64,000 nucleotides of DNA from Planctomycetaceae bacterium (GTDB lineage: Bacteria > Planctomycetota > Planctomycetia > Pirellulales > Pirellulaceae), in contig JAIYDN010000010.1 in the NCBI GenBank assembly GCA_027487485.1, positions 122,439 through 186,438 on the forward strand, written 5' to 3'. The translations under genes were made by a program, and so were the position numbers. The notes under the pieces are model-generated. The model saw only the letters and a program-made list of their open reading frames with translations, ran no database searches and was not told the origin of the DNA. This document shows positions 34,753 to 59,323 of the stretch, piece by piece (positions within the stretch are counted from its first letter, which is position 1; every line of letters begins with the position of its first letter).

Positions 34753-34770
34753 GTTCGTATCCCTAAGAAG

Positions 34771-42955: not shown

Positions 42956-44140
42956 ATGCGAAATTGGACGAGAGCGTTTGCTCTCTTGGTTTTCGGTAGC
43001 ATTCTCTGGACATCGGTCGATGGATGGAGTCTCGACCCTAGCGACGAACTGCGAACTTGGAGCGATTCGAGTGGCAAGTTCTCGGTCAAAGCAGCGTTCG
43101 TCGCAGTAGAAGATGGGCAGGTTATTCTCAAGACCGCACAAGGAAAAGAGATCAAGTTATCCGTCGACCGGCTTTCTCAAAAGGATAAGGATTACATCGA
43201 ACGAACATCCAATCCAGGCGGTCCTGGGATGCCTCCGGACGACAATTCCGCGGAAGGTTCGGACGACGATGAAGACTCCGCGACCAAAACGTCATCGAAA
43301 CGACGTACTGATAAATCGCAACCGCTTTCTGCAAGTGAAGCGACGAACCTTCGCGAGCTTGCAAATCGCTTTTACAGCGATCTTAGGAACAAAGAACGAA
43401 CCGATGCACAGTCACTCCTTACCGAACCGGCTAATGTCTTAGCCAAAGATAACAAGTCTGCCTTGTTGGTCTTGCCGATGCCAGACGATGCTAAAAACGC
43501 GATCAAAGTCGGAAAACCTAAGAAGCAAGGGCAGATGGTTGTTGTCCCTGTCATAGTTCGCATTGATGGAAAATCGCAAAGCACGATGCTTCATCTAAGA
43601 CAGATCGATGATCAATGGAGAGTGTTTGCGATAAGTGCCAAGCTTGGTGATTATGAGAATACCGTCAATTTTGAACTCCCTATCGGCGGCGATTCGAAGT
43701 CCAAAGGCTCTCTCGCCGACTTGGTCAACCAGCCTATCCAGGTCGCCGGTGTAACGCTGGATGGACGGAATGTGTCGTTAGTTGATTACCGAGGCAAGGT
43801 TGTTCTGATCGATTTTTGGGCTACTTGGTGTGGCCCATGCAAGGCGGAGATACCTAACATTTTCGCGAATTACCAAAAGTACCATTCTTCAGGTTTCGAA
43901 GTGATCGCGATCAGTCTCGACAGCGACCTGCAGGAACTTCAGGAGTTCGTGACCAAGGAAAACCCACCCTGGGTAACGCTTGCGGATCGGCATCCACTGA
44001 ATCGAATGTCCATGGCGGCGAAGTTCGGAATTAGCGGGATCCCAGCTTTTATTCTTGTTGGAGCCGACGGTAAAGTGATCGATACCAATTGCCGCGGTGA
44101 AAAGCTCGGACAAAGACTCGCTGCGGCTTTGGCGAAATAG
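42956..44140 (+). CDS. Exported SHD1 and TlpA-type thioredoxin protein
   Basis: A 394-residue protein. Signal peptide residues about 1-22. An SHD1-like domain follows (RTWSDSSGKFSVKAAFVAVE to LSQKDKDYIE), a feature typical of planctomycete exported proteins. After a linker and a small NTF2-like middle (ATNLRELANRFYSDLRNKER), a C-terminal TlpA/ResA-type thioredoxin fold carries LIDFWATWCGPCKAEIPN (active-site Cys pair near 291-294) and ISGIPAFILVGADG with the cis-proline. It should act as a thiol-disulfide oxidoreductase outside the cytoplasm. The start at 42956 was chosen for GGGGAG at 7 bases; the frame opens earlier at 42869. Confidence 0.85.
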   Translation: MRNWTRAFALLVFGSILWTSVDGWSLDPSDELRTWSDSSGKFSVKAAFVAVEDGQVILKTAQGKEIKLSVDRLSQKDKDYIERTSNPGGPGMPPDDNSAEGSDDDEDSATKTSSKRRTDKSQPLSASEATNLRELANRFYSDLRNKERTDAQSLLTEPANVLAKDNKSALLVLPMPDDAKNAIKVGKPKKQGQMVVVPVIVRIDGKSQSTMLHLRQIDDQWRVFAISAKLGDYENTVNFELPIGGDSKSKGSLADLVNQPIQVAGVTLDGRNVSLVDYRGKVVLIDFWATWCGPCKAEIPNIFANYQKYHSSGFEVIAISLDSDLQELQEFVTKENPPWVTLADRHPLNRMSMAAKFGISGIPAFILVGADGKVIDTNCRGEKLGQRLAAALAK

Positions 44141-44151
44141 ATGACTGTATG

Positions 44152-44358
44152 CTTCCGTCGAGTTCATCTCGGCGGAGCGCACAACTGGAAGCTACCATGC
44201 CCACCACTAGCGCACTTTCGCTTCTGTCGAGCTTGTCTCGGCGGAGCGCACAACTGAAAGCTACCATGCCCACCGCTGGCACGCTTTCGCTTCCGTCAAG
44301 CTTGTCTCGGCGGAGCGCACAATTGGAAGCTACTACACGACGCAGTCGCTGGCTCCGA
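44152..44358. repeat. 69-bp direct tandem repeat, three copies
   Basis: Copies begin at 44152, 44221 and 44290 with the pattern CTTCCGTCGAGCTTGTCTCGG then CGGAGCGCACAACTGGAAGC. The third copy is the left end of the 171-bp element at 44291, so the first two look like solo left ends. Translations (SLPSSLSRRSAQLEAT) are repeat artefacts, not genes. Confidence 0.85.
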
Positions 44359-44461
44359 CCGGGACGAGCCCGACGGAGGCCCAAAAAGGGATGAAATTTC
44401 TCTGGGTTTGCCCGCTTGTAGCTTCCAGTTGTTGCTCCCGATTGGGGTGAACCCAACGGAA
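44291..44461. mobile_element. MITE-like 171-bp element, copy 1
   Basis: About 43-bp imperfect terminal inverted repeats: left TTCCGTCAAGCTTGTCTCGG with GGAGCGCACAATTGGAAGCT, right GTAGCTTCCAGTTGTTGCTC with CCCAACGGAA. No coding capacity. A second copy of identical length is at 46170-46340. No target duplication was identified. Confidence 0.7.
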
Positions 44462-44524
44462 AGCTCTAGCAAGCGGAATGACTCAAAAGCAAACTGGGGG
44501 CGGCATTGCTTCTCGTGCTCGTGC

Positions 44525-45916
44525 TCAGCGCAGCGGTGCTCGTGCTCGATCACCCGTCTTCGAGTTGAAGTTGAAGCTCAAGTTGAACTGAGCAATACCA
44601 CCCACCGATTCTAGACCGTGGCGGAAGAGGGGGGGGTAGTCCTCTAGTTCGTTCTTGCTGGTTTGAGATTCTGTTCCGTTTTGCTTTTCCAAAGGAATTA
44701 GAATTCTCCGGACGCTTTGCGTATCGAAGGGCGTCAACACAACTACAACTTGAACATCTTGATCTTTGACTTCGGCGGATAGCACAGCTGCATTTTTGTA
44801 CTCTTGGCCAAGTTGTTGCAAATGAAAATCATGGAAGATGTTTCCCTTCCAGTCAACAATGCGGATCGTCGATCCCCAAGCCAATAGAAACATTCGTTCT
44901 TCTAATGAAAAGCAACGCACCGGGTTGAAGATTCCGCACGACTGATTATTCGAATACGTTGTATCCAGCTCTAGCTTTCCATCATTTGTACTCCATACAG
45001 AGAAACGAATAAGTGTGGGCAAAGTGATCGAAGTAGCTAATAACATTTTGTCATTAGAAACATCCATCGAGAATGAGTGATGGTATCCTTGGGAGGCATC
45101 CGGAGCCCCTGCCAATTCGGGTGGTTTTTCGACGGACAAAGGAACGAAACGGAACCCCTTTTCGGCCTGCCATTCTCCCGTTACAACTCCATGCCTATTG
45201 ATCAAGAACGGAAGATTGCGACTTGAAGTGTATCGTATGCCGGACATAGACTTGCAGAAGATGGTCGAGTTATTGCTTGGCTCCGAAATCTCGATCTTCG
45301 GCTCCTTTGCGTTTGTGGTGCAGTCGGCAATCTTCGCCAAACCGCTTACGTCGCAGTCACGACTGAATTCCTGATGGCTTGGCGCTGTGTACATCAGTGC
45401 CGAAGAGCTCAAAAAAAGCAAATCCTCAGCTCGTATCTTTAGCAAATGGAGGTCTTCAAACTTGCCGTTCTGAAGACGAAAGCTGTAATGCGCAATCCCA
45501 TCTAAATCATCTAGTCGATCGGTCGCGCTTTTGTCTTGCCTTGCATTAGCATCAAACACCGTTGCGACAAAGAGCTCCGAATCAGGCACCTGATGGATGG
45601 ACAAAACCCGTCCAGGCCACGGTGCCTTTAGATTTTCAGTTCGTGTCGCGATTGAACCTTTTTCGCCATCAAAGGTAAACCTGTGTAGAACTCGATTGGA
45701 GACAACCAACACACTTTCGTGACTGCGTGAGACGCAGTATGCAAATTCAGGGACGACGTCACGAACCTTGGTAGTTCTGGTTGGAGCGTCATGGTTGCAG
45801 CCAAAATATGCGAACAAAAGCGAAACAACCGAAACGATAAGTGTTGATTGGATCCGGCAACATATAACCCCTGCCATGCATCCTTTCTTCGGGGAATCTG
45901 TTGCTGTTTTTTCCAT
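44525..45916 (-). CDS. Hypothetical lipoprotein, possible beta-propeller
   Basis: A 463-residue protein with an N-terminal hydrophobic segment ending in a lipobox-like FAYFGC (about residues 35-40), which suggests a membrane-anchored exported lipoprotein. The remainder is beta-rich with repeated Trp/Asp/Gly turns (WSTNDGKLELD, WGSTIRIVDWKGN), consistent with a WD-like propeller, though no repeat is strict enough to name it. The last residues (NSKTGDRARAPLR) are encoded by the GTGCTC array, so the original C-terminus may have been replaced. It lies between the two 171-bp elements. Function unknown. Confidence 0.7.
   Translation of the reverse strand: MEKTATDSPKKGCMAGVICCRIQSTLIVSVVSLLFAYFGCNHDAPTRTTKVRDVVPEFAYCVSRSHESVLVVSNRVLHRFTFDGEKGSIATRTENLKAPWPGRVLSIHQVPDSELFVATVFDANARQDKSATDRLDDLDGIAHYSFRLQNGKFEDLHLLKIRAEDLLFLSSSALMYTAPSHQEFSRDCDVSGLAKIADCTTNAKEPKIEISEPSNNSTIFCKSMSGIRYTSSRNLPFLINRHGVVTGEWQAEKGFRFVPLSVEKPPELAGAPDASQGYHHSFSMDVSNDKMLLATSITLPTLIRFSVWSTNDGKLELDTTYSNNQSCGIFNPVRCFSLEERMFLLAWGSTIRIVDWKGNIFHDFHLQQLGQEYKNAAVLSAEVKDQDVQVVVVLTPFDTQSVRRILIPLEKQNGTESQTSKNELEDYPPLFRHGLESVGGIAQFNLSFNFNSKTGDRARAPLR
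44541..44572. repeat. 32-bp sequence shared with 46742-46773
   Basis: Begins CGTGCTCGATCACCCGTCTT and is identical at both sites. Here it forms the 3' end of the lipoprotein gene; at the second site it follows the stop of the gene at 46791-47435. Confidence 0.85.
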
Positions 45917-46169
45917 GTTCTCAACACCCCAAGTGTTTCGCCATTAGTTGCGTCTCAAATATCGCATCTGCACTGCAGCGTTGTTTGCGATAGCATACTC
46001 GAAATGGAAGCGTGAAACAAGCAATCTGCGAGGGTTTCGCTGGTGCATTGCTCGCAATTTAAAGTTGAGGAAAGAAGCAAGTGCCATAGCACCTAGCTTG
46101 CCATCTTGCTTGGTCTTCAACTGGTGTTGGCCGTGTCCCTGATGGACGATGAAACCCATCCGCTTTCGC

Positions 46170-46340
46170 TTCCGTCGAGCTTGTCTCGGCGGAGCGCACA
46201 ACTGGAAGCTACCGAAAGACGCAAACGCTGGCTCCGACCGAAACGAGCCCGACGGAGACCCAAAAAAGATAAGAGGTTTCAATCGGTGAGTTGTTTGTAG
46301 CATCCAGTTGTTGCTCCCGATTGGGGTGAACCCAATGGAA
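46170..46340. mobile_element. MITE-like 171-bp element, copy 2
   Basis: Same length and orientation as 44291-44461, with the terminal arms TTCCGTCGAGCTTGTCTCGG and CCCAATGGAA. The interior differs at scattered positions but keeps the palindromic GGCTCCGACC...GACGGAG core. The surrounding gene-free stretch 45944-46790 is all repeats. Confidence 0.72.
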
Positions 46341-46415
46341 AGCTGTGGGGAGCGGTAGGGCCTGATGGCGAGTAACAATCATTGCCTGGATCTTAGCTTG
46401 CCGTTCTTTGAGTTT

Positions 46416-46647
46416 TAAGCCCGAAGGGCTGGCACATCCTCTGCCGGTGGTGATAACCACCGGTTTTCGGACTAGTTGGGAGCTCGAAAGCCCGGAGGGC
46501 TGACACATGATGACGCATGATGGGAATCTCCTGATGACTGACTAAATGAGCCCCGATGTGTCGGCCCTCCAGGCTTTTCATTTTAAACTGGATTGAAACC
46601 GGGGCCTTCGACCCCGGCACTGGGTGTGTCAGCCCTATCGGGCTTAT
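46416..46647. repeat. Four copies of the GCCC-GGGCTG-CACAT repeat family
   Basis: Direct copies at 46416-46437 (TAAGCCCGAAGGGCTGGCAC) and 46488-46508, inverted copies at 46555-46576 (GATGTGTCGGCCCTCCAGGC) and 46623-46647. This is the same family as element B in the palindrome at 4579-5128. A short hairpin CCGGTGGTGATAACCACCGG lies between the first two copies. Confidence 0.8.
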
Positions 46648-46741
46648 GCAAGGTATTAGAAGCGGGGGGGAAGTGAAACCATCGCAATACTTTTTTTGAT
46701 TTGCAGTAAGTGCATGGCACCTAGCTGTTCTTTCCCATACT

Positions 46742-46773
46742 CGTGCTCGATCACCCGTCTTCGAGTTGAAGTT
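46742..46773. repeat. 32-bp sequence shared with 44541-44572
   Basis: Identical 32-base block that includes part of the GTGCTC array and GTCTTCGAGTTGAAGTT. It lies 18 bases past the end of the bilin cluster and suggests recombination or duplication between the two sites. Confidence 0.85.
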
Positions 46774-46790
46774 TCGATGTTGAATACTTT

Positions 46791-47435
46791 TCAGACCGCG
46801 TCTTGGAAAGATGCGGCCACGTGAACCTTCATCCTTCCAAAAGGATAGGAAACTTGGAAATCGGGTTGCAGATAATCCTGAACGCGATGCTGCATTCCGA
46901 TGAAAAGAATCCCTATTTGATGGGCATTCAGAGTCTCTGCAATACGACCTGCAATGAAACGATCTCGTTGGTTCAAAAGCGTCTCAACAACCTCGCCCGT
47001 GGATGCTGAATTCACAGGCTCATCGTAGCGATTGACGCCTTCCGCTAATGACTTGCGAACAAGGTCATACTCGCGAAGCAGCAGTTCCGTTGACTCGGTT
47101 CCCTCCAGGGTTGCGCCTTGGGAAACAAGCCATTGGACTAGCTTATGGTTGGCGCTTCCTTTGGTGGCTAGTTCGTCAACAATCCGATGTTCCAGGATTC
47201 GATCCGGATGGCCGGTGAACGGAAGTGCATCCTGAAAAATAAAGGCATTCGAATAATCAAGCCTCCACGATTCGATTCCATGCTGTAGCTCATTCCAAAA
47301 GAAATCCACAACCCGTTGGTTGGATTCCATCGAACTGGCGGAGGTGAATTGGCTTTTTGCATCGCGAATCGGTTGGTCTAGCGAACCAAAATCATGTCGC
47401 GAATGGATAATCGGAATGATGTAAAGTTGACGCAT
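46791..47435 (-). CDS. Hypothetical protein, last gene of the bilin cluster
   Basis: A 214-residue soluble protein. The N-terminus LYIIPIIHSRHDFGSL and the C-terminal RDRFIAGRIAETLNAHQIGI with LFIGMQHRVQDYL resemble, in layout only, the His-containing strands of TraB/Tiki-type proteins. The middle is helical. It follows the 800-residue gene by 80 bp in the same direction and probably belongs to the cluster. No family is assigned with confidence. Confidence 0.65.
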   Translation of the reverse strand: MRQLYIIPIIHSRHDFGSLDQPIRDAKSQFTSASSMESNQRVVDFFWNELQHGIESWRLDYSNAFIFQDALPFTGHPDRILEHRIVDELATKGSANHKLVQWLVSQGATLEGTESTELLLREYDLVRKSLAEGVNRYDEPVNSASTGEVVETLLNQRDRFIAGRIAETLNAHQIGILFIGMQHRVQDYLQPDFQVSYPFGRMKVHVAASFQDAV

Positions 47436-47515
47436 CGCATTAGGTACCGTTGGTCAGGCTGCCAGCCTTTTGGTTTCTAAATTTGAACAAGCTGGCGGCC
47501 TGTCCCAAAACAAGC

Positions 47516-49918
47516 CTACTTCATTGCCGCCACATCGGCAAATGAAACTGGCTGAATTGATGCGGCTAGGGCGGCAGTGGATACCAGTCGTTTGTTTGCT
47601 CCTGGCTTTCCGGCAGCGCCGCTAGAGGACATCGTCGTAAATATTTGTTTGAGATACATTTCGATGGTTTCCGCTTCGTCCCGATCCAACTGCCCGCGAA
47701 TGGCATTGATCAGCTCGTTAAAGTTTGCTTTCGCACAAGGGGCACTCGATTCGAAGTTCTCTGGCCTGGCCACAATGTTCTGGCCAATCCTTTTTCGCCA
47801 CCAAGTCTTAAAACCAGCGACATCCCCAGGCGACGACAGCAGGAAGCTTGCCAATCCCCGAAGCATCACGGAATTGTCTCGAATACATGCCTCCAATCCT
47901 CGTTCACCCAGTTGCTCTTTGTAGGCTGGCGACGAATTGATAGAGGCGGTCGAGATACGTTCGGCCATCGAATTGCTGTGCTCATTGATTCGGAAGGCAC
48001 CGGTATACGCCGGAGCGGCCGAGGCTAGGCCCATCAGCAGTTCTGCGATTTCTGGGTACTCTCGAAGTTGTTCCAAAAGCCCGCGCAGGAACTCTACCAC
48101 CACCGATCCCGACAACTTGCTCAAGCGAATTTGCTCCACTTGGAAATACTCGTGCAGTGCAATCTCAGCGGCAGTTCCGCCGATGATGGCGGTTTCGATT
48201 GTCTTTTGGATCAACAGCTTGCCGTCTCGGCGACCGGCTTTGATGCCATGGCGTTCCAAGGATTCGTGACGTGGGGCAGCTTGATAACCGCGTTCTACCG
48301 CCGATATGGCGAAGCGGTCCGCATGAGCCGCAACCGAAGCCAATTTCGCATGTCGATCAAAACATCCCATGGCATCATCTAGATAGCCTCGGGCCACTTT
48401 CGCATCTTCTGGATCGGCATGAGTTTCCAGGACTCGAATCACGCGATCGTACACTTGCTTCAAGATGCCCACGTTGAATGGCAAGTTCGGCAATAGGAAC
48501 TTGGTTAGATACGCACGAAACTCGTACCCATTGACTCCGGATGGTCCGCTGGGGATCAACGTTACAATTTTAGAAAGCACAAGCCGAATGTCGCGGAATG
48601 CGGCTCGCTTGTCGGCTGCGAATTGGCTGAAGGTTTCGATGGCCCAGTTAGCAGATTCTACGGAGATCTTATCCACGACTTCGGTCAGTCGAATCGCCGT
48701 TTCGCTTCGACGCGCCACTTCGACCAGTTGAAGAATCGCGTTGCGGAAGATTTTCGCTGTGTCATCTTTCCAACGGGAATCAACCACCTCCAGCAACACC
48801 TTCAGATTGGAGGCCAACAGGCCAGAATGCGTCGATGGCATCGTGGGCAAGACCACTCGGCACCACACATCTGCGAGCTGAGATGTTTGCATATCCATCG
48901 GGCCGCAAGCATGGATGATCGCTAGTTCCGTAATCAATTGCCGATTGGCCATCGCGACTGCAGTCTGAAATTCGTCAGTGCGCAAAAGCCCAAGCGATTC
49001 GCCGCGTTCCAACAGCTTCACAGCGGCGGCATCTGCAATTTCGCCAGCATGAGTCGTCAATCGGACCGCTTGCAGCAAATGCTGAGCGTTGTCGGCCATG
49101 GTCTCGAAAAGGTCGCTCACCGCCATCGCAGCTTCAGGGCCGCAGCATTCGACAACTCCTTCCCGCAAGGCTAAAAACGACCAATACCATACTTCTGGGT
49201 TGTATTCCACTTGGTTCATCAAGCGTTCGATCAGCCACCCCGCAAACTGCTTCTTCATTTCCATGGGCGAAGGAGTCTTCATGACTCTGGCAACTTCTTT
49301 GATCAGTAACTCGAAGTCCCGTTTGCATTTGGAAACACTGGACACACCATACTGGGCTTTCACGTCAGGCATAATAGCCATAACACGTTCGGCTGCAAAT
49401 TCAGCGATACGGCGGTGGGCTCGTTGGATGGTTCCGCTGTAAGAAGCTTGGCGAACGAATGCGATCATTTGTTCAAAGACGGTATCGACAAAGGGATGAG
49501 CATGCGTTGGAAGTTCGCGCTGAGCGCCTTGCTGAAGAAAGTGAAAAAAGATTTCCATGTGATGGCCGGTTACATTGGTTGCGTCCAAATGTCCGACAAG
49601 CCACGAAAGGACTTTCTCAAAGACGATCTCGCAGGAACCTTCGCGAACGGCTTGAGCGGCGTACCTTAGAATGATGCGTCCATCTTGATGGCCTTTCTTG
49701 CGACGCATCGAACCGCTGGGGCCTTCGAAGCTGGGAGCAACGTCGCAAAATGCATGAGTTGCATAATCCACGATTTCGAATTCAAACTGCTGCATCATTC
49801 GCGATACCAGCATGCGGTGCGGAAGTTCTAAGGAAGAACCAAGTGCTTGCTCGTTCTCCAGCGAGGTAAAATAGCGACCTTCGGCAGCGGACATGACTTT
49901 AGAGAATGCACTATTCAT
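47516..49918 (-). CDS. Large helical protein of unknown function in the bilin cluster
   Basis: An 800-residue protein with no signal peptide or membrane segment. The composition is strongly alpha-helical throughout (for example RRIAEFAAERVMAIMPDVKA and FLRGLLEQLREYPEIAELLM), like HEAT/ARM-type or scaffold proteins, but I see no diagnostic repeat. The first 60 residues include SAAEGRYFTSLENEQALGSS and FEFEIVDYATHAF; the C-terminal 20 residues are Ala/Ser/Val-rich. AAGGAAG sits well placed before the ATG. Its size and position between a V4R protein and a hypothetical protein suggest a structural or scaffolding partner of the phycobiliprotein-like globin, by analogy with phycobilisome linkers; that is inference. 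Confidence 0.82.
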   Translation of the reverse strand: MNSAFSKVMSAAEGRYFTSLENEQALGSSLELPHRMLVSRMMQQFEFEIVDYATHAFCDVAPSFEGPSGSMRRKKGHQDGRIILRYAAQAVREGSCEIVFEKVLSWLVGHLDATNVTGHHMEIFFHFLQQGAQRELPTHAHPFVDTVFEQMIAFVRQASYSGTIQRAHRRIAEFAAERVMAIMPDVKAQYGVSSVSKCKRDFELLIKEVARVMKTPSPMEMKKQFAGWLIERLMNQVEYNPEVWYWSFLALREGVVECCGPEAAMAVSDLFETMADNAQHLLQAVRLTTHAGEIADAAAVKLLERGESLGLLRTDEFQTAVAMANRQLITELAIIHACGPMDMQTSQLADVWCRVVLPTMPSTHSGLLASNLKVLLEVVDSRWKDDTAKIFRNAILQLVEVARRSETAIRLTEVVDKISVESANWAIETFSQFAADKRAAFRDIRLVLSKIVTLIPSGPSGVNGYEFRAYLTKFLLPNLPFNVGILKQVYDRVIRVLETHADPEDAKVARGYLDDAMGCFDRHAKLASVAAHADRFAISAVERGYQAAPRHESLERHGIKAGRRDGKLLIQKTIETAIIGGTAAEIALHEYFQVEQIRLSKLSGSVVVEFLRGLLEQLREYPEIAELLMGLASAAPAYTGAFRINEHSNSMAERISTASINSSPAYKEQLGERGLEACIRDNSVMLRGLASFLLSSPGDVAGFKTWWRKRIGQNIVARPENFESSAPCAKANFNELINAIRGQLDRDEAETIEMYLKQIFTTMSSSGAAGKPGANKRLVSTAALAASIQPVSFADVAAMK

Positions 49919-50022
49919 GGTTCTTCCTTTTTCACTTATGGATTACAGGTATGCTTTGCCAAACCAAGGAGGATCTGCTGAGATAGCTAATCTGGTTCTT
50001 TGGTGTTTCAAAGGAATACCGA

Positions 50023-50676
50023 TTACGATTGGAGGGTTAGTAAATGGTTCAGAATTTCTTGATGGGTTTTGGAGCTAGTTCGCCAAGTACTTAGCTCTTC
50101 GATTCGTTTGGGATCCGACAGCAAGAAGTGGCTGCTGCTGAAGCCTTTCATAGCACATTGCGATTGAAGACAATCCACATCACGTTGGATAAAGTGGGAG
50201 AACATTCCCGCAATGATTCCAGCTGTTAGCACGTCGGCAGGGTACTTCAATTCCGCTTCTGTGATATCCGCCATGATGGCCCCTTCTAGGTTCAGGTCGA
50301 TGATTCCCTTCGCGAAGTGGGTGTAATCCAAAGTGAGCATTCCCCAACCGTTGTGGCCAAATTCTTGGACGACTAGGCTTTGAAAGAAAGCAAGTGGAAA
50401 CTCCTGGAGAGGTTTCTGATAGAATTCGGACCACGCATTGTCCAAGCCTTTGCCAAAGTTGCGTCCCCATTTGCGACCGCAATGGTAGAGTACTTTTTCT
50501 ACGCGGTCGCCGCACTCTTTCTCGAGAGCTCGGTGCAAACCTAACAAAAAGTCATTGGTCAAGGCAATCATGCGGCGACCGGATCGATTCACCAGCACGC
50601 CAGTTTCGACATTTGCGGTCATGTATAACTTCTCGACATAGTAGTTTTTGAATTCGAGATCAGTGGTTGCGATCAT
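50023..50676 (-). CDS. V4R-domain protein 2
   Basis: A 217-residue protein. After an N-terminal 55 residues, a V4R (4-vinyl reductase-type) domain spans about 75-190: VEKVLYHCGRKWGRNFGKGL then WGMLTLDYTHFAKGIIDLNL, then VLTAGIIAGMFSHFIQRDVD with the terminal Cys/Gly strand CLQSQCAMKGFSSSHFLLSD. V4R domains bind small hydrophobic or tetrapyrrole-related ligands in BchJ-type and DmpR-type proteins. The usual DHC of the last strand reads SSSHF here. It lies between the phycobiliprotein-like globin and the 800-residue protein. Confidence 0.78.
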   Translation of the reverse strand: MIATTDLEFKNYYVEKLYMTANVETGVLVNRSGRRMIALTNDFLLGLHRALEKECGDRVEKVLYHCGRKWGRNFGKGLDNAWSEFYQKPLQEFPLAFFQSLVVQEFGHNGWGMLTLDYTHFAKGIIDLNLEGAIMADITEAELKYPADVLTAGIIAGMFSHFIQRDVDCLQSQCAMKGFSSSHFLLSDPKRIEELSTWRTSSKTHQEILNHLLTLQS

Positions 50677-50765
50677 CTGCGTATCCAGGGTTCGTTAAAT
50701 CGGGCGTTGTGGGTATGGATGGTTTTGTGATGAAAGGATACGGGGCGGGTGCCATTCGGTGGTTG

Positions 50766-51263
50766 CTAAACAGCAGGTGTTGCCGGAGCAGGAAAGTCCG
50801 ACATAATCTCGATCGTGCGATTCAAGAAGGGTTCGAATACTGCAAACGCGTCTGGTGGCAAGCTTTGGCGGAAGCCTTGCTTCAGATAGGTGTAGGTATC
50901 GCGGTTGAATTCAGGAGTGAAGTTCAGACCAGCCAGGATCGTTCGCAACCAAAATAGCAGTTTCTCTTCCAGGGTCGCCATTTCGTCGAGAAGCATGGCC
51001 TGTGCCATAAATCGCGTTGTGAGCTGCACGTCTCGAAAGGCTTTTGCCCAAGCGCTCGCATGATACTTGTCGAAATTGGGATAACGTTTCCGAGTGTTGT
51101 CGATACAAAAACGAACAGCAGCTTCTTCATTGGTTTCAATCAATCCCAAAATGCGGAACCGTTCTGGAAATCCGTTGGTATAGTCCAAGACTTCTTGACG
51201 CTCTTCTGGGGTCAAGTAACGGCTGTCGCTGCCTACTAAGATTTCGGAGATACGATTGTTCAT
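50766..51263 (-). CDS. Phycobiliprotein-like globin (bilin-biosynthesis-associated)
   Basis: A 165-residue protein with the phycobiliprotein helical plan. SRYLTPEERQEVLDYTNGFP matches the start of allophycocyanin (ARYLSPGELDRIK), followed by RFRILGLIETNEEAAVRFC, FRDVQLTTRFMAQAMLLDEM and LEEKLLFWLRTILAGLNFTP. In phycobiliproteins the chromophore Cys84 is followed by an Arg86-Asp87 pair that holds the bilin. Here Arg77-Asp78 are kept, but the Cys position is Ala75. The only Cys is Cys53. It may therefore bind bilin or heme non-covalently, or via Cys53. It lies in the same run as a heme oxygenase and a bilin reductase. Globin-type proteins beside bilin reductases have been described in heterotrophic bacteria (my recollection, not checked). 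Confidence 0.72.
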   Translation of the reverse strand: MNNRISEILVGSDSRYLTPEERQEVLDYTNGFPERFRILGLIETNEEAAVRFCIDNTRKRYPNFDKYHASAWAKAFRDVQLTTRFMAQAMLLDEMATLEEKLLFWLRTILAGLNFTPEFNRDTYTYLKQGFRQSLPPDAFAVFEPFLNRTIEIMSDFPAPATPAV

Positions 51264-51300
51264 AATGTCAGTGGGAAAGGTTCGAATGTTTCTTAGTGGA

Positions 51301-52425
51301 TTAACTTGCGTTCAGGGTGCGTTGCAATTTCTCTCGCAATGCTAAGTTCTCAAGATTTAAAGCGATGATCCGATTGGCCATCTGTTCAATGGGATCAACC
51401 GGTTTGGGCTCGCCGCGACTTCGGCCCAGTTCCATGTTTAATTCCAGCACCAGCCGTTCGAGTTGCAGGAGGTACTCGTCGCCGGAGGATTCATTGCGGG
51501 GCGAACGAAGGTTGGATGGAACAATGGGAACTATGTCGTTGAGATGCGAGGACAAAGGTTCAGAGCGGGCTCGTGTTGGCTGGTTTTCCGAGCTGCGATT
51601 GGATTCCGTTTGCGAAGCGGCGGAGGAACTTGTTTTGGGAGCGACGGCCGACTTGGTTTCTTTGGCGGCTGTTGTCACTTTCGGTGGATCTGGAATCGGC
51701 TCGGCCGCCGATTCCTTGGTGACGGTGGATTCGCTCAGGGGGCTCGGTGCCGGTGGTTCGATTGGTGCTGAATCTTCTGCCGCTTTGGTTTGTGCATTCT
51801 GTTTCGCAGCGGCTTCTCTGGCTGCATTTTCTATGGCCGCAGCTTCTCTAGCAGCTGCTTCTTTGGCAGCAGCTACTTTGGCTGCTGCCTCGAGGGCAGC
51901 TGCTTCTTTTGCTGCTGCGTCCCTAGCCGCAGCTTCCGCTGCTTGTGCAGCTGCTGCCACTTCTAGATCAGCGGCCGCCTTGGCCTTCGCTGCTGCTTTT
52001 TCTGCTTCCGCCAATTCCGAAGCGGCAGCCGCTTCTTTCGCAGCTGCTTCCGCTAATTCCTGTGCCTTGGCTGCTTGTAAGGCTGCGTCATTCGCCGATG
52101 AGTCTAACGTCGGTGCCGCAACCGCCACTTCGGGCGGAGCGACGGGCTGTGAAACCGATTCGGCAGCGATGATGTCGGTTGGTTTGGTGGGCTCAACGGG
52201 GGCAGATGCAGCCGGTGCTGATACGTTGCCGGGATCGGTTGCTGCCAATGGCAAATCGACCCATGGTTTGCAAGCCGGAATGGTATACGTTTGTTCATTT
52301 CGCCAGTTGACCAATTGGCCAAGTTGGCTCAGCGGCATGCTGCCCAAGTTCATCGCTTGAAGCGAGCCAGCGACTGGCTTCCATGCGACGGAAGATTGGT
52401 TTTCGATTGAATTTTCAGATGCCAT
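51301..52425 (-). CDS. Alanine-rich rod protein
   Basis: A 374-residue protein. The N-terminal 60 residues (MASENSIENQ and PACKPWVDLP) are followed by a Pro/Ala/Val linker, then a roughly 100-residue stretch of EAAAREAAAK-type repeats that would form a single rigid helix. A Pro/Ser-rich segment follows, and the end is helical with NLENLALREKLQRTLN. No signal peptide. Strong composition bias also makes a long antisense frame, which was rejected. It may be a spacer or linker joining sensor proteins in the bilin cluster; this is inferred from context. Confidence 0.75.
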   Translation of the reverse strand: MASENSIENQSSVAWKPVAGSLQAMNLGSMPLSQLGQLVNWRNEQTYTIPACKPWVDLPLAATDPGNVSAPAASAPVEPTKPTDIIAAESVSQPVAPPEVAVAAPTLDSSANDAALQAAKAQELAEAAAKEAAAASELAEAEKAAAKAKAAADLEVAAAAQAAEAAARDAAAKEAAALEAAAKVAAAKEAAAREAAAIENAAREAAAKQNAQTKAAEDSAPIEPPAPSPLSESTVTKESAAEPIPDPPKVTTAAKETKSAVAPKTSSSAASQTESNRSSENQPTRARSEPLSSHLNDIVPIVPSNLRSPRNESSGDEYLLQLERLVLELNMELGRSRGEPKPVDPIEQMANRIIALNLENLALREKLQRTLNAS

Positions 52426-52536
52426 GGTTTCGAGATGCCCTCTCACAGTGGCCGAACAAACGCTGTGAGTCTTTCATTCCTTCGCGGTTGGGATGGCCTA
52501 AGATTCCAGGCCGTTTGGTTGTACAAGTTTTTGCCT

Positions 52537-53313
52537 CTACACGGATTGAACTTTCTTCATAATGTCTTTTCCCGTTGCGCCTTGGCTTCGCCAGAACGCT
52601 GCCGCATCGACTCGTTCCGCATGCGAGATTAGGAACTTGCAATGGTCGGCCCCCATGGCGTAGCACTGGATTTCTACGCAACCGAAGTCCTTTTTGGCCA
52701 AAACGCTAAAGACCGCAGAAAAGAGCCCGGCATAGAAGTAACACACCACTGCACCGATGTCGCCAAGCGTCTTTGCGACGGCGGACTCGTACAGTTCCAC
52801 ATAAAGCATGTCCCGCTTTGCTTCGCGAAAATCAAACTGCCAAGTGCCCCAACCTTCAATCGTAAGCGGCCACCACCAAGTTTCCAGCATCATGCCCATA
52901 CCCATCTTGGTGAAGTCCACTTCGAACTCACCCTGGGATCGTTTTACGAAGTTGCGCATGTCCTCCATCCCCCAAGCGTATCCGGTTTCGTACATGACCA
53001 TCCCCGCTTTTTCGCCCACTTCGTCTTCCAGCCCACCCAAGACGCCCGTGATGAAATCTTCGGTGACTCGAAGAATACGTTGCCCGTAGACGTTAGTGAT
53101 AATCCCTCGATGGCGATCGTGCTGGTAAAATTGGTCTGCGGTGTAGTAGTTGTGCTTGAAGGGCTGTACACCGGGAGTCATACGGATCGCATCGCGAATT
53201 TTGTCGTCCGCCTTTTCGTTGCGAATGCGCACAAGCGATTTCGAGTCCGGGGTACCCGAAATGATCTCGACGAACTGCTTGCTTTTGTCTTCAGCGGTGA
53301 TGACTTGAGTCAT
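52537..53313 (-). CDS. V4R-domain protein 1
   Basis: A 258-residue protein with an intact V4R domain in the C-terminal half. The N-terminal 110 residues carry NEKADDKIRDAIRM and HDRHRGIITNVYGQRILRVT. The V4R core follows: AGMVMYETGYAWGMEDMRNF, WWWPLTIEGWGTWQFDF, then IGAVVCYFYAGLFSAVFSVL and the diagnostic final strand VEIQCYAMGADHCKFLISHA. In V4R proteins this Cys-rich strand is a signature. It precedes the alanine-rich gene and follows the heme oxygenase gene by 80 bp. ATG at 53313 has GAAG upstream. It may be a bilin or heme sensor, or take part in bilin chemistry. Confidence 0.85.
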   Translation of the reverse strand: MTQVITAEDKSKQFVEIISGTPDSKSLVRIRNEKADDKIRDAIRMTPGVQPFKHNYYTADQFYQHDRHRGIITNVYGQRILRVTEDFITGVLGGLEDEVGEKAGMVMYETGYAWGMEDMRNFVKRSQGEFEVDFTKMGMGMMLETWWWPLTIEGWGTWQFDFREAKRDMLYVELYESAVAKTLGDIGAVVCYFYAGLFSAVFSVLAKKDFGCVEIQCYAMGADHCKFLISHAERVDAAAFWRSQGATGKDIMKKVQSV

Positions 53314-53393
53314 ATAAACTTCAGGTTCTTTCGGATACAAAAAGTACGTTGCGAATCACCAACAGTCTTGAGGTATATTGCTCAGCGGAGGAG

Positions 53394-54044
53394 CTAAGCT
53401 GTCTTAAGCTGTTGAGCTTGCTTGGGGAAACTATCCATTGGCAGTGCTGCATAAAGCGTATTGAGCAGATCCATGAACCGGACTGCTCCTTGAATCAGTT
53501 CCGTTTCAGCCGCAGCTCCTAAGTTCGCTTGGTCGACATTCTCTTTGAAGCTACGAAGCCGCATCGGTGTGCCCGCAGCCCCCTCCGTGTGATACTCGAT
53601 CCCCGCGACATCCCCAGAAGCTAATCCCAATGTTTTCCCGAGCGGCTTCGCAATCATCAGAGAGCCCATTCGGGAACCTTCCAGAATGTAAATACAACCG
53701 AGAATTGCATATGGGCTTTCAAGAGCCCAGTCTTTCATCTGTTCGACAATAGCGATCGTTTCGATCATGGGGGCAAAGCTGCCAGTGTTGAAACCGAAAG
53801 CTTGAAGATCGCGTCGAATGGTTTCTGTTCGAATCATTTCCTGCGTGAAGAAATCGGTAACTTCCGAACAGGAAGTCGCACAGGATTCGAGCGTTCCATG
53901 AATGTGCCATAATTGAACTAGGCCGCGCGAATAGTTGGTGGCCGTCATAGAACCGTCCAACATACCCTTGGAAAAGGCAGTTTGTTCGATTTGAAAGTGC
54001 GATGCGGAGATCGCTGAACGAACTAGATTCATTACGCTCATCAT
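53394..54044 (-). CDS. Biliverdin-producing heme oxygenase
   Basis: A 216-residue heme oxygenase of the bacterial BphO/HmuO type. The proximal heme ligand is probably His16 in SAISASHFQIEQTAF. The distal-helix signature is recognisable in ILGCIYILEGSRMGSLMIAK (compare LYVLEGSTLGG). No signal peptide; it should work in the cytoplasm, opening heme to biliverdin, CO and iron. It starts immediately after the bilin-reductase stop (TAAATG), so the two enzymes are made from one message: this supplies the substrate of the reductase. Confidence 0.85.
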   Translation of the reverse strand: MMSVMNLVRSAISASHFQIEQTAFSKGMLDGSMTATNYSRGLVQLWHIHGTLESCATSCSEVTDFFTQEMIRTETIRRDLQAFGFNTGSFAPMIETIAIVEQMKDWALESPYAILGCIYILEGSRMGSLMIAKPLGKTLGLASGDVAGIEYHTEGAAGTPMRLRSFKENVDQANLGAAAETELIQGAVRFMDLLNTLYAALPMDSFPKQAQQLKTA

Positions 54045-54896
54045 TTACCCTTGTGGTTTCTCGAACAAAAATTCTCGCATAAAGGCAACGGTCCAATCTG
54101 CGCCAAACAATTTACTGAGAAACTTGTTCCCAGGACTGTGTTCCATATGATGATGCTGGTAGGCGTGAAGCGCGTTGATTGCATCTTCATCCCTTGTTTG
54201 CAGTAGTAGGCTCTTCCCTACATCATCGCACGCAAAATGATTTAGGTACGCATCCATGTAGGCCAAGTAGCACTCTTCGATAGTGGGTAGATCAACGGCC
54301 GGAACATTCCTTGCGTAAGTGAAGTTTCCTTGTGATTCTTGAACAGCCCAGAAAGGGGGGGCTTCATTGCACGGTAGACCTGCAAACCGTGGAGCCAGCA
54401 TGCCCGTCAACATGGACGTATCCTCGGCAACCGATCCCTCGAGAACTGGAGTTTGAATGTCGACAAAAGCAACTCGAATCGCATCCCCGACCGCGATTAG
54501 TTCGGCAGCATAAACTGGCATGTTCTTTGGACGATTTGGGAAGATCCAGGTGTTGATGATCTCGTTCTTGCCCCCGTGGATATAAACCATACGAAGGCTA
54601 GCGATCGGGCGATCCTGAATTTGCAGTGACCATTCCGTAGCCTCCAAAAGCATTTTCCCGTGAAGCGATTCGCGCTGCGTGTACTGTTTAGGAATCAAGT
54701 TGCAGCGACTCAGATGCGAGCGCATTCGGGTTTTGGTTTCTTGAACCAAGGGTGCAAAGGAAACAGCATCTGACTTCAGAATCCGTTGGCTCAGCATTCG
54801 CGATTGTCCAGCGAATGTGGGTACGGTGCTTTTTTCGGTAGAGGTCCTGGAATAATACTGCGTTGGGAAATAGTCGAAGGTGAAGTTCGGATACAT
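54045..54896 (-). CDS. Ferredoxin-dependent bilin reductase (PcyA/PebS family)
   Basis: A 283-residue FDBR. The family core is clear: FAPLVQETKTRMRSHLSRCN, then IINTWIFPNRPKNMPVYAAE with LIAVGDAIRVAFVDIQTP. Aligned by eye to PcyA, the catalytic Asp105 corresponds to Glu132 and His88 to Asn115. PcyA Glu76 falls on a non-acidic residue. The Asn is as in PebS-type reductases, while Glu in place of Asp is unusual. It would reduce biliverdin IXa to a phycobilin, needing reduced ferredoxin. I chose the ATG at 54896; the frame is open to a GTG at 54995, but that N-terminal part does not look like the family. Confidence 0.82.
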   Translation of the reverse strand: MYPNFTFDYFPTQYYSRTSTEKSTVPTFAGQSRMLSQRILKSDAVSFAPLVQETKTRMRSHLSRCNLIPKQYTQRESLHGKMLLEATEWSLQIQDRPIASLRMVYIHGGKNEIINTWIFPNRPKNMPVYAAELIAVGDAIRVAFVDIQTPVLEGSVAEDTSMLTGMLAPRFAGLPCNEAPPFWAVQESQGNFTYARNVPAVDLPTIEECYLAYMDAYLNHFACDDVGKSLLLQTRDEDAINALHAYQHHHMEHSPGNKFLSKLFGADWTVAFMREFLFEKPQG

Positions 54897-55333
54897 GCTT
54901 ATCTCTACCGCCCTTAGGTTGTTACGTCCGATCAGGATTCGACCTGTTCCATACCCAATGGAAGGATACTGGTTGTGGTGCATGCCGTTGGACACGGCAT
55001 CATTTTGGTGATCGACTTTTGAACGCGGTGAATCGCGTCATTTTTCCAATTGCTTTTCTAGCTAAGAAGCCCACCATGGAAAATCGTAGGCATTCTGAAA
55101 AGTCCTAAGTGATAACCTTAGCAACTTGCTTCCAAGGTGGTTCTTTGATCGCAATGGTACGGAATTGAACACGATACGATCGATTGTGCAATTACGTGCA
55201 ATCTCTCAGATCAGGCTGGTTTTTAGGAAACCATATTGCGAAGAATACGCAATGCTTTCGCATCGGAAGCGTACGCATTTGTTTCGGAATGTTGTCCAAA
55301 TCTACAAACACCCAAGCAGTAGACAAGCACCTT
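54897..55333. promoter_or_regulatory. Divergent intergenic region between the bilin and chemosensory operons
   Basis: About 440 bases separate the FDBR start from the CheA start and must hold both promoters, linking the two operons. I found no clear -10/-35 pair or strong repeat. The minus-strand frame upstream of the FDBR start and the plus-strand frame upstream of CheA both look non-coding. Confidence 0.5.
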
Positions 55334-58300
55334 ATGGATGACTTTCAAGATACGGAACTGCTGACAGAGTTTGTGGCTGAGAGTCTGCAAGGCCTAAGCA
55401 ATGTCGAGCAAGATCTCATGTCGCTTGAGTCCGATGGTGGCAACGACAAAGACCTTGTTAACCGTATTTTTCGCGCAGTGCATTCGATCAAGGGGACAGG
55501 TTCCTACATGGGCCTGGAAAACTTGGTTCGGCTGAGTCACCTTGCGGAAACCCTTCTCGATCAAATTCGAAGCGGCCAAAGGCAAGCCTCTTCCGAAGTC
55601 ACCGATGCGATTTTAGCTGCGGTCGATGATCTTGTCGGAATGCTGAATGCACCCGACATTGGGGTCAGTTTCGACAGCACGGAATCGGTGCAGAAACTAG
55701 ATCGCGTGTTAGGGGGAACCGGTGAGGTCTCTAACAGTCCAGCACCCAAGGCAACAGTTCCGGAATCGGCACCATCGAAACCGGTAGAAGTCCTCACGCA
55801 AAGTGCGACAACCAGCAACACAACATCGGAAGAGTATGACGAAAACCTACTGGCAGAGTTTGTGCAGGAAGGTCTCCAGGGGCTCACCGACATCGAGGCG
55901 GATTTACTGTCGCTGGAAACAGACGGGGGATCCGATCAAGAACTGGTCAATCGCATCTTTCGCGCCGTTCATACGATCAAGGGGAATGGGTCTTACCTGA
56001 AGCTTGAGAACTTGGTTGCGGTGGCGCATCGAGCCGAGTCTCTCTTGGATCGAGTCCGAAGTGGCACGGAGACAGCCAGCGCACAAGTCACCGATGCGGT
56101 CTTGGCAGCCGTGGACTCCTTGAAGCTAATGCTGCAAACCAATGACTTGGGTGCAACTTTCGACTGCCGCATCGCTTTGTCGAAGTTGGACGCAGCCCTC
56201 AATCCTACCACCGAAGCACCCGCGGCCGAATGCTTGTCCGAAAGCGACATCGCGAAGATCCAAAAAACCGTCGGTAGGAAGGGTGTGGTCTTCTGTCTCC
56301 ACTTGGACCTGGAGGCGATTCGCCAAGCGATCGATGTCAAAGAAGGGGTCGTGGTTGGACTTTCTAGTCTTGGGAAAATTCTTCATAGCTCGATCCCGCA
56401 GGACAGAATCGACACCTTGGCCAAAGGGGCATGTACGGTTTACCTGGAAACCGTGCTCTCGGCTGATATGCTGTGCGACCACTTCCATCTTAAGCCAGAG
56501 TGTGTCTACATCATTGATGTTGCCAAGCTGAAACCTTCGACGGGGGCTTCACCGTCGCCAGCGCCCGCCAAGTCGGCCGCTTCGGCGGTTGCTGTCGCGA
56601 AAGCGGAAAAGCCAGTCGCCCCGGTTCCATCCGAAAAACCGAGCACATCAGCGCCAGCCGCGGTGGCCGCAAACAACAGCGTGCCCGTTTCCAAAGAAGC
56701 AACTGCATCCAAGGGTGCCCCTAAGGCAGCAGCCGACAAGAACGCTGCAGATCAGTCGATGCGGGTACCAGTTCATATCTTGAATGAACTGCTGGAATGG
56801 ACCGGGACCATGGTCATGGCCAGAAACCAGTTGATGAACGAATTTGATTTTCGCGGCAACGCAGCCTTTCGTACTTTGTCGCAATCGATTACCGGTGTGC
56901 ATGAGACCGTCATCGAAACACGCATGCAAACCACCGGTTCGTTATTTGAACGTTACCGACGAATTGTTCGCGATCTATCGCGTCAGCTCAATAAAGAAGT
57001 AGCCCTTCACATTGAAGGTGGGGATCTGGAACTCGATCGAACGATCCTGGAAAGTTTCGCTGATCCGTTAACGCACTTGATTCGCAATTCACTGGACCAT
57101 GCGCTGGAGACGCCTGCGGAGAGAGAAGCAGCTGGCAAAAACCGTCAAGGGAACATCTACCTTCGGTCGTATGTGCACAGCGGCGAGATCATTCTTGCGG
57201 TTGAGGATGATGGGCGAGGGATTTGTGCCAAACGCGTATCCGAAAAGGCGGTAAGCAAAGGGGTTATCACTCAGGAGTATGCGAATCAGCTGTCAGAGCA
57301 TCAAAAAGTGATGCTCATCTTCCACGCTGGATTCTCGACCAAGGATCAAGCGACCGACGTCTCCGGCCGAGGGGTGGGGATGGACGTAGTGCGCAACAAC
57401 ATCGAAGCGGTTGGCGGATCCATTGATGTTGTTACCAAAGTAGGATCGGGAACAACCTTTTCCGCAATTTTGCCACTTGCGAAAGCCCTGGTCTCGTCCT
57501 CGCTTACCAAAGCGTTGATCGTCGATATCCAGCAAGAGCGTTTTGCGATTCCGGAAACCGCCATCAGCGAGATCATTCAGTACGATGAGAAGGCGATCGC
57601 CAACATTGTTCAGGTGGATGGAGAAAATGTATACCAGCTTCGCGATAAGCTGGTGGCATTGCTCGACCTGCGGGAAGCACTGGCAATGGACAAGAATTTC
57701 GAAAGAGACAAGCATAGTTGCTTGGTCATTCTTCAATACCGAAAGCATCAATTTGGGGCTATTGTTGACAAGGTACTTGGCATTCAAGAAATCATTGTGC
57801 GAGGAACGCCAAAGCTGCTTGCAAGTTGTGGTGTATTCTCAGGGCACACAGTGCTGGGAACTGGCCGAGTTTCCTTGATCCTGGATATCAACGGCCTAGT
57901 GAATAAACTGGCATTGAAATTCTTCGATCAGAAGAAGCTCAAGAGCAATCGACCTGCCAATCTAGATAACGCTGGGCCTTTGAAGACATCGAAGAATCTG
58001 CCCAAGCAAAAGATGGTGGTATTTAGTTTTGCGGACAATGAGCTATTTGCAATTCCGTTGGAATTGGTGGCGATCATCGAACGCATCTCGTTGAATTCGA
58101 TAAAGACGGTTGGTTCGAAAGAATACTGTCAGATCAAGAATGAAACGATCTCCGTCATGCGATTGGATTCTTTTCTTCCAATCTCACCCTTTGGTACTGA
58201 GAATAAAGACTGCTGTTTAATAAGACCTGCGGCTGTCTCGTATCCGATTGGAATCCTAACCGGCCCCAATGTGTCGGTTATTGATGTGGATGACGACTTT

Positions 58301-58828
58301 GAATCGCGGCTCGACGACAACAAAGGAATCGTAGGCACATTCTTACACAATGACAACTTGGTCATGTTGCTGGATGTATTCAGTGTTTTTGAGAAGCATG
58401 CGCCGGACAAGATCAAGAAGCAAGACACACAGACGCGTCAAGCAAAGATCTTGGTTGCAGAGGACAGTCTGTTCTTCCGTAAGCTGATCAAGCAATACAT
58501 GACTCGCGAAGAGTGGACTGTAGAAATTGTTGATGACGGTCTCGAAGCATGGGAAAAGCTGCTTGCGGAACCTCAGCGGTACGACCTTGTCATATCCGAC
58601 ATCAACATGCCTCGCATGGATGGCTTCCAGCTTGCCACGAAGATTCGAGAAGATCGACGATTCGACATGTTGCCTTTGGTCGCTTTGACGACCCTATCCG
58701 ATGACCATTTTCGGGAGAAGGGTCTGAGTCTCGGTTTTGATCGGTATGTGATCAAGATTGATAAGAATCACGTTCGTTCGACCGTCTCCGAGTGTCTTCA
58801 AATTCGCCGAACCCAGGAGAAGCGTTAG
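55334..58828 (+). CDS. cheA: CheA-type hybrid histidine kinase with two Hpt domains and a receiver
   Basis: A 1,164-residue kinase. Hpt 1 carries AVHSIKGTGSYMGLENLVRL (His50) and Hpt 2 AVHTIKGNGSYLKLENLVAV (His213); both histidines are present. A P2-like region and an Ala/Pro linker follow, then the dimerisation helices (VHILNELLEWTGTMVMARNQ), a CheA HATPase (DPLTHLIRNSLDHAL, VEDDGRGI, VSGRGVGMDVVRNN), a CheW-like regulatory domain, a second degenerate CheW-like segment (VVFSFADNELFAIPLELVAI), and a C-terminal receiver with Asp near 1089 in VISDINMPRMDGFQL. Planctomycete hybrid CheA proteins of this form are known. The frame is open upstream to 55184, so the start is a choice. Confidence 0.9.
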   Translation: MDDFQDTELLTEFVAESLQGLSNVEQDLMSLESDGGNDKDLVNRIFRAVHSIKGTGSYMGLENLVRLSHLAETLLDQIRSGQRQASSEVTDAILAAVDDLVGMLNAPDIGVSFDSTESVQKLDRVLGGTGEVSNSPAPKATVPESAPSKPVEVLTQSATTSNTTSEEYDENLLAEFVQEGLQGLTDIEADLLSLETDGGSDQELVNRIFRAVHTIKGNGSYLKLENLVAVAHRAESLLDRVRSGTETASAQVTDAVLAAVDSLKLMLQTNDLGATFDCRIALSKLDAALNPTTEAPAAECLSESDIAKIQKTVGRKGVVFCLHLDLEAIRQAIDVKEGVVVGLSSLGKILHSSIPQDRIDTLAKGACTVYLETVLSADMLCDHFHLKPECVYIIDVAKLKPSTGASPSPAPAKSAASAVAVAKAEKPVAPVPSEKPSTSAPAAVAANNSVPVSKEATASKGAPKAAADKNAADQSMRVPVHILNELLEWTGTMVMARNQLMNEFDFRGNAAFRTLSQSITGVHETVIETRMQTTGSLFERYRRIVRDLSRQLNKEVALHIEGGDLELDRTILESFADPLTHLIRNSLDHALETPAEREAAGKNRQGNIYLRSYVHSGEIILAVEDDGRGICAKRVSEKAVSKGVITQEYANQLSEHQKVMLIFHAGFSTKDQATDVSGRGVGMDVVRNNIEAVGGSIDVVTKVGSGTTFSAILPLAKALVSSSLTKALIVDIQQERFAIPETAISEIIQYDEKAIANIVQVDGENVYQLRDKLVALLDLREALAMDKNFERDKHSCLVILQYRKHQFGAIVDKVLGIQEIIVRGTPKLLASCGVFSGHTVLGTGRVSLILDINGLVNKLALKFFDQKKLKSNRPANLDNAGPLKTSKNLPKQKMVVFSFADNELFAIPLELVAIIERISLNSIKTVGSKEYCQIKNETISVMRLDSFLPISPFGTENKDCCLIRPAAVSYPIGILTGPNVSVIDVDDDFESRLDDNKGIVGTFLHNDNLVMLLDVFSVFEKHAPDKIKKQDTQTRQAKILVAEDSLFFRKLIKQYMTREEWTVEIVDDGLEAWEKLLAEPQRYDLVISDINMPRMDGFQLATKIREDRRFDMLPLVALTTLSDDHFREKGLSLGFDRYVIKIDKNHVRSTVSECLQIRRTQEKR

Positions 58829-58843
58829 GAAATGAGAGCAACC

Positions 58844-59323
58844 ATGCAGATCTCCACATTCTTGATTCGCGATGAAGCGTTTGCAATCCACTCCCTATTA
58901 GTTGAGGAGTACTTTCGCCCGTTGCCAATCACCAAAGTGCCAGGCTCCAATTCGCGTATCGATGGATTGGTGAACATTCGAGGCCGAACGGCCGTCGTGA
59001 TCAATATGCGTCGCTGCTTCGAGATCCCACAAAGAGAATCCTCCGCCCCGGGCGAGATGATCCTCTTGGAAACATCGTTGGGCTTGGTTGATGAGGCCCG
59101 CGAAATGGGCCTGGTTGCATTCGACGAGCCGATTGTGCTGAACGTTGATTCCGTCTCACAAATTCACCATCTCGTCGATGAAGAAATTCATCCCGCTCCA
59201 CCGCACGTGAATCAACCGTTCGTGGATGGAGTGATCCGAGTTCAAGACAAGTTTTTTACTTTGATTTCAATCCAACGACTGATTGAAACTGTCCTTCAAC
59301 CAGAAACGCAGGAAACCATATGA
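58844..59323 (+). CDS. cheW: CheW-like coupling protein
   Basis: A 159-residue CheW-like protein with MQISTFLIRDEAFAIHSLLV, IDGLVNIRGRTAVVINMRRC and LNVDSVSQIHHLV in the usual two-lobe order. An ATG 12 bases upstream is an alternative start, but the Shine-Dalgarno spacing favours 58844. It overlaps the next gene by ATGA and follows cheA by 15 bases, so it is part of the same operon. It should link a sensor to CheA. Confidence 0.85.
   Translation: MQISTFLIRDEAFAIHSLLVEEYFRPLPITKVPGSNSRIDGLVNIRGRTAVVINMRRCFEIPQRESSAPGEMILLETSLGLVDEAREMGLVAFDEPIVLNVDSVSQIHHLVDEEIHPAPPHVNQPFVDGVIRVQDKFFTLISIQRLIETVLQPETQETI

Follow-up and report, generated by a model that had tools for sequence, protein, structure and literature searches.

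Why would a bacterium that apparently does not photosynthesize keep genes for making a bilin and for holding it in protein? The question is raised by a run of minus-strand genes at 46791-54995 of a 64,000-nucleotide stretch from a Planctomycetaceae bacterium (family Pirellulaceae; GenBank assembly GCA_027487485.1, contig JAIYDN010000010.1, positions 122,439 to 186,438), hereafter the window. A first-pass annotation, made from the letters alone, had read this run as its best candidate for an undescribed system, a phycobilin-based sensor outside cyanobacteria. As judged from gene order, the bilin cluster forms one conserved array in Pirellulaceae together with a cluster of gas-vesicle (gvp) genes on one side and a divergently oriented CheA-CheW operon on the other, a union that is new, and a direct repeat that is common to bilin, gvpA and phytochrome genes is new as well. 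Gene content, predicted domain folds, synteny, co-occurrence and this recurring repeat suggest a bilin-dependent, likely light-responsive controller of gas vesicles and therefore of buoyancy, a reading to which we give an even chance.

The bilin genes and their products

Eight open reading frames (ORFs) fill the run, as had been annotated, with gaps of 0-104 bp between them:

54045-54896, minus strand: ferredoxin-dependent bilin reductase (FDBR), pre-PcyA-like (PF05996, 2.2e-14; PDB matches)
53394-54044, minus strand: heme oxygenase (HO; PF01126, 1.5e-13)
52537-53340, minus strand: V4R protein A (PF02830, 1.6e-17); an alternative start, the ATG at 53313, is possible
51301-52446, minus strand: tether or rod, with a conserved N-terminal motif ending NW.N, a variable low-complexity middle and a conserved C-terminal coiled-coil-like stretch
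50766-51263, minus strand: small phycobiliprotein-like globin (BBAG; PF00502, 2.4e-12)
50023-50676, minus strand: V4R protein B (PF02830, 1e-4, under the Pfam cut-off), matching relatives of protein A
47516-49918, minus strand: phycobiliprotein-like protein of 800 amino acids (aa) with six predicted domains (phycobilisome domain, 2.4e-13, at the N-terminus, and predicted folds)
49325-49327, minus strand: codon of its Cys198, at the CxRD position in domain 2 (all 62 ungapped rows have Cys)
47885-47887, minus strand: codon of its Cys678, at the CxRD position in domain 6 (60 of the 61 ungapped rows have Cys)
46791-47435, minus strand: x214, no family assigned (TraB/PrgY hint in two of nine members)

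The matches to PF01126, PF05996, PF00502 and PF02830 bear out the HO, FDBR, phycobiliprotein-like globin and V4R identities first proposed. For the second V4R protein, which lies under the cut-off, support comes from tblastn, where the two V4R proteins hit each other's relatives at 21-37% identity; protein A itself is 82-94% identical across loci of the same family. The Ala-rich character attributed to the rod holds in some species only, its N-terminal motif and coiled-coil-like C-terminus being what is conserved. Among the two supposed unknowns, x214 is still without a family, and the 800-aa protein begins with a phycobilisome domain and seemingly consists of such domains throughout. No B12-binding domain was detected in the cluster with Pfam.

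The FDBR scores 54.1 bits against PF05996 (Pfam cut-off 31) in a non-cyanobacterial host. Its start is probably at 54896 and not at 54995, as in the ORF first listed, since a length of 283-284 aa is shared by 15 of its 20 best relatives. Its PDB matches are 6qwq (plastid bilin reductase), 2g18 (PcyA) and 2x9o (15,16-dihydrobiliverdin reductase). In the alignment to 2g18, read by eye with PcyA numbering, which begins past PcyA Glu76, Asn115 and Glu132 stand in place of His88 and Asp105. The FDBR is among the least conserved proteins of the cluster (43-60% identity in family loci vs 70-92% for BBAG), so that the bilin products might differ between species.

The BBAG passes its Pfam cut-off (47.5 bits vs 22.2 for PF00502) and reads A-F-R-D at the CxRD site, with Ala replacing the chromophore Cys; a Cys occupies this site in 3 of 95 aligned sequences, and Cys53 is present in 87 of the 95. 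The larger protein is predicted to be a chain of six tandem phycobiliprotein/globin-fold domains, with the motif Asp at residues 79, 201, 315, 443, 565 and 681. By the predicted model it combines the phycobiliprotein fold with the CxRD Cys, which is (nearly) invariant in two of its domains (Cys198 and Cys678) but mostly lost from the BBAG. The fold matches of the predicted model for domains 5-6 include two photocobilin structures. This six-domain chain, which is new, is encoded by 11 of the 241 family genomes searched. Six phycobiliprotein-like domains per chain may recall an antenna disc, and the protein could then be a pigment shield or an energy antenna and not a sensor. This is a very improbable reading: a clear CxRD Cys is limited to two or three of the six domains, and the genome has no match to PF00124 (Photo_RC), a search in which the photosystem I type was not included.

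The core set itself is already published, and the claim of an undescribed system falls to that extent. The main text of Rockwell, Martin and Lagarias (2023, PMC10151467) describes pre-PcyA/BBAG clusters in heterotrophs, with Planctomycetes among the pre-1 hosts; the pre-1 and pre-3 FDBR clusters contain HO, an Fe-S protein, two V4R proteins and one or two phycobiliprotein-like globins. FDBR activity and bilin binding by BBAG are demonstrated there, the function of the clusters being given as unknown. In comparison with the pre-1 cluster as described there, the window shares HO, FDBR, two V4R proteins and a phycobiliprotein-like globin but has no Fe-S gene in the cluster, a small globin devoid of the CxRD Cys, the six-domain chain and a physical union with gvp and che genes. 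A single weak Fe-S match (best 9e-8) is found on another contig in 8 of the 11 cluster genomes and none in the other three. A related cluster from another planctomycete family (genome G263, locus L023) includes an Fe-S gene (Fer2, 3.5e-10). This cluster also encodes a 122-aa protein (L023 2581-2949) with three repeats that, by eye, resemble the rod's N-terminal motif ending in NW, possibly a docking motif.

Two further systems are comparable. The cyanobacterial slr0144-slr0149 cluster shares the V4R pair and BBAG (PMC10151467), and its proteins interact mutually (PMC9880817), but it has no HO or FDBR, includes an Fe-S protein and is tied to photosystem assembly and repair. The photocobilins and photoglobins (PMC10979010) are likewise bilin-binding proteins serving light sensing but use B12 plus biliverdin.

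A conserved array with gas-vesicle and che genes

On both sides, the run continues into genes that the first-pass annotation had overlooked together with the six-domain chain, the shared repeat and a phytochrome elsewhere in the genome, all of them new:

32752-42325, minus strand: gvp cluster (Hsp20/GvpH-like, Cdc48-like AAA, three GvpF/L, GvpA, GvpN-like AAA, GvpG, GvpK, two further PF00741 proteins and accessory ORFs)
55184-58828, plus strand: CheA-type hybrid kinase (two Hpt, HATPase, CheW and receiver domains, Pfam), divergent from the FDBR gene
58832-59323, plus strand: CheW (domain search)
59320-61728, plus strand: double dCache protein (domain search)
62134-63720, plus strand: conserved che-side protein of 528 aa without a Pfam family

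The gvp cluster lies to the left of the bilin genes, on the same strand. It shares with known gas-vesicle clusters GvpA, GvpF/L, GvpG, GvpK, a GvpN-like protein and PF00741 paralogues, all present, but differs from them in being preceded on the same strand by bilin genes. GvpN is assigned by its AAA_5 domain and position, and the Hsp20/GvpH-like protein is under both cut-offs. For the dCache protein, no MCP signalling domain is listed and hydropathy gives no clear membrane helix.

The synteny search that had been suggested, run as tblastn of 28 window proteins against relatives, recovers the same order and strand in Pirellulaceae metagenome-assembled genomes (MAGs), even where the six-domain protein is as little as 54% identical (L017). 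The ten relatives' loci are those of the other ten genomes with the six-domain gene, each counted once. Among the 11 genomes, five contigs run into gvp structural genes, four reach Hsp20 or Cdc48 and two end earlier; Hsp20 and Cdc48 head the gvp side and also adjoin the gvp genes of G007, a genome without FDBR. In eight loci, the match edges of the six-domain gene and x214 are 7-200 bp apart, and x214 lies at -16, -4, 2, 11, 53, 239, 244 and 830 bp from Hsp20 (measured to the furthest upstream start codon), i.e. it abuts or overlaps the next gvp-side gene in five of the eight (-16 to +53 bp). Because of these short distances, the two gene sets look coupled in several lineages. A homologue of x214 (38% identity) also stands near the gvp cluster of G007 (L093 908-1474), so x214 may belong to the gas-vesicle side.

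Co-occurrence points the same way. All but one of the 11 genomes that carry the six-domain gene also have GvpF/L. In an earlier draw of 199 family genomes, FDBR was found in five, GvpF/L over the cut-off in six and both in four (p 1.2e-6, a value that is only a guide because the genomes are related). Among 392 genomes drawn from the phylum, two have FDBR (G000 and G263) and 26 have GvpF/L, G000 alone being listed in both.

Two plankton-useful accessory sets could nevertheless be co-inherited as an island without any shared function, the bilin set acting as pre-1/BBAG clusters do elsewhere. Indeed, G263 (84% complete), of another planctomycete family, has a bilin cluster but is not among the gvp matches, gas vesicles occur without FDBR in G007 and G139, and every linked case found sits in one family. 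However, the order and strand preserved down to 54% identity, the abutting or overlapping of x214 and Hsp20 in five loci and the occurrence of the same repeat near both gene sets argue against this explanation, which we consider unlikely but worth keeping in mind.

The ten relatives' loci all come from MAGs, five of which bear lake or pond names, the others being uninformative. Among cultured Brakhagea, strain SH449 has an FDBR gene and strain SH501 a BBAG gene (one gene confirmed per strain); the terms gas vesicle, phycobili and bilin do not occur in the main text of the Brakhagea paper (PMC13092639). Likewise, gas vesicle, buoyan, Gvp and chemotaxis have no occurrence in the main text of PMC10151467, figures and supplement lying outside this count, and no link between bilins and gas vesicles in planctomycetes appears among the open-access PMC matches listed.

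Several neighbouring features vary between loci. The segment between the gvp and bilin halves (42326-46790) is not seen in the relatives' loci; it encodes a thioredoxin-domain protein and also contains a 463-aa ORF and stretches of ORFs that look repetitive. An IS-like transposase ORF interrupts cdc48 of G059 (L095 3942-7060) near residue 564, which is also where the gvp contig of G098, a genome of the same genus, stops. In G587 and G591, the che genes are directly followed by homologues (L088 3185-3865, L099 16378-16974) of the LuxR-type regulator encoded at 17944-18675 of the window, a first candidate for the protein that would bind the repeat described below. In L129 (G589:C371), the most divergent relative, a phytochrome gene (frame 6537-9290) adjoins the che side of the array. 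Searches of the fetched flanks with eight more genes of the window revealed no consistent neighbour.

A direct repeat near bilin, gvpA and phytochrome genes

Inspection of the spacer between FDBR and CheA revealed a direct repeat, TTGCAC-N4-TTGCAC, with ten bases from repeat to repeat. Copies in the window include:

55186-55201, minus strand: TTGCACGTAATTGCAC, in the FDBR-CheA spacer, overlapping the 5' end of the longest CheA ORF
37804-37819, plus strand: one-mismatch copy at 244 bp upstream of gvpA; it falls in the 3'-terminal part of the gvpF/L ORF before that gene
28150-28165, plus strand: one-mismatch copy preceding a small membrane-protein-like ORF

With at most one mismatch, the spacer repeat is present in all nine loci, its nearest copy lying about 220-309 bp upstream of FDBR (the start in G589 is approximate); these copies constitute the discovery set. 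A one-mismatch copy also lies 147-248 bp upstream of gvpA in all seven cluster genomes whose gvpA was fetched, outside ORFs of at least 120 aa in four of them. Two overlapping copies precede the sole phytochrome gene of the window's genome, a perfect one at -92 and one with a single mismatch at -82 relative to the open frame, both outside ORFs of at least 120 aa. Among seven phytochrome frames from five genomes, four have a copy (up to two mismatches) within 130 bp upstream, whereas 0.48 are expected (P 0.0015) for the 600 bases scanned at the window shuffle rate, or 0.32 for 400 bases. The repeat also precedes the small membrane-protein-like ORF in three genomes, where this ORF lies beyond a 1505-aa coiled-coil gene (window 27811-28165, L083 18725-18934, L090 8497-8706).

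Elsewhere in the genome, 910,131 bases, in stretches picked by contig number and not at random, contain no perfect and two one-mismatch copies. The window holds five copies with at most one mismatch vs 0.14 expected, one being the discovery site and two lying inside gvpN; with two mismatches allowed it is not enriched (8 found, 7.35 expected).

Phytochrome and other possible uses of the bilin

The statement that no phytochrome gene is present holds for the window but not for the genome, which has one, with PHY, GAF and PAS_2 domains. Since this genome has no PF01126 match besides the cluster HO, that enzyme probably feeds the phytochrome too. HO and FDBR might even chiefly supply the phytochrome chromophore, the phycobiliprotein-like proteins storing or delivering bilin, and the repeat before the phytochrome gene would fit. 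Such a main role is improbable because no more than 5 of the 11 cluster genomes (three of the six more complete ones) have a PHY-domain phytochrome. In addition, the N-terminal Cys-Asp-His context, read by eye, is presumably of the biliverdin type, which needs no FDBR.

Tetrapyrrole-binding proteins could also adjust flotation to oxygen, redox or heme status instead of light. HO requires O2 and heme, stratified lakes have strong O2 gradients, the proteins have globin folds, and V4R domains occur also in MsvR regulators (the NCBIfam MsvR match, 4.4e-11, is under the model cut-off). This explanation is quite unlikely, given that the FDBR, seemingly superfluous for sensing heme or O2, has been retained and that the repeat precedes the genome's phytochrome gene.

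A possible control of flotation by light

In the bilin-dependent control of gas vesicles that we favour, HO would open heme to biliverdin, which FDBR would then reduce. The six-domain chain would hold the bilin, probably by covalent bonds to Cys198 and Cys678, and the small BBAG would perhaps bind it non-covalently, the V4R proteins and the rod holding the complex together. A light-induced change would be passed to the CheA/CheW phosphorelay, and a regulator acting on the TTGCAC direct repeats would set transcription of the bilin genes, gvpA and phytochrome together. Taken together, the genes for bilin synthesis, for a multi-domain bilin-holder, for the CheA relay and for gas vesicles, joined in this genome by phytochrome, have the look of a single regulon, for which light-guided buoyancy is the simplest function. 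In its most specific form, photo-buoyancy in a heterotroph, the six-domain phycobiliprotein would be the photoreceptor or antenna, the bilin state would switch gas-vesicle production via the dedicated CheA, and phytochrome would belong to the same regulon; this version is possible but doubtful. The sensor first proposed thus stands as a chromoprotein system, by its families and predicted folds, its sensing role being a deduction.

Several observations weigh against bilin-dependent control. A 4.4-kb insert separates the bilin and gvp halves in the window's own genome; G059 (99% complete) has the bilin genes but no GvpF/L match, and, as noted, G007 and G139 show the converse. In three of the seven cases (the window, G587 and G594), the copy upstream of gvpA is part of the 3'-terminal sequence of the gvpF/L ORF before it, and coding conservation could account for it there. 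Of the two gvp genomes devoid of FDBR, G139 carries a one-mismatch copy near gvpA, so that the repeat is not confined to bilin genes, and the other has none within 400 bp. The two window copies left after setting aside the discovery site and gvpN give P 0.009 alone, a value that rises to 0.09 when the background rate is set to its upper bound. Three of the seven phytochrome frames have no repeat in the 600 bases scanned, and phytochrome itself is found in a minority of the cluster genomes. Lastly, according to the main text of PMC10151467, one BBAG-1 and two BBAG-2 proteins were photoinactive, BBAGs were weakly fluorescent, and the single pre-1 FDBR tested was inefficient.

The conserved tie to gas vesicles, to a CheA kinase and to a recurring repeat nevertheless gives the bilin cluster a concrete and testable function, light-guided flotation. 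The hosts are apparently non-photosynthetic, several of them come from lakes, and they would likely use light to set their flotation. Six phycobiliprotein-like domains in one chain also bear on the origin of phycobiliproteins. If the proposal is true, chromoproteins of the phycobiliprotein type would in these bacteria steer vertical position instead of feeding photosynthesis.
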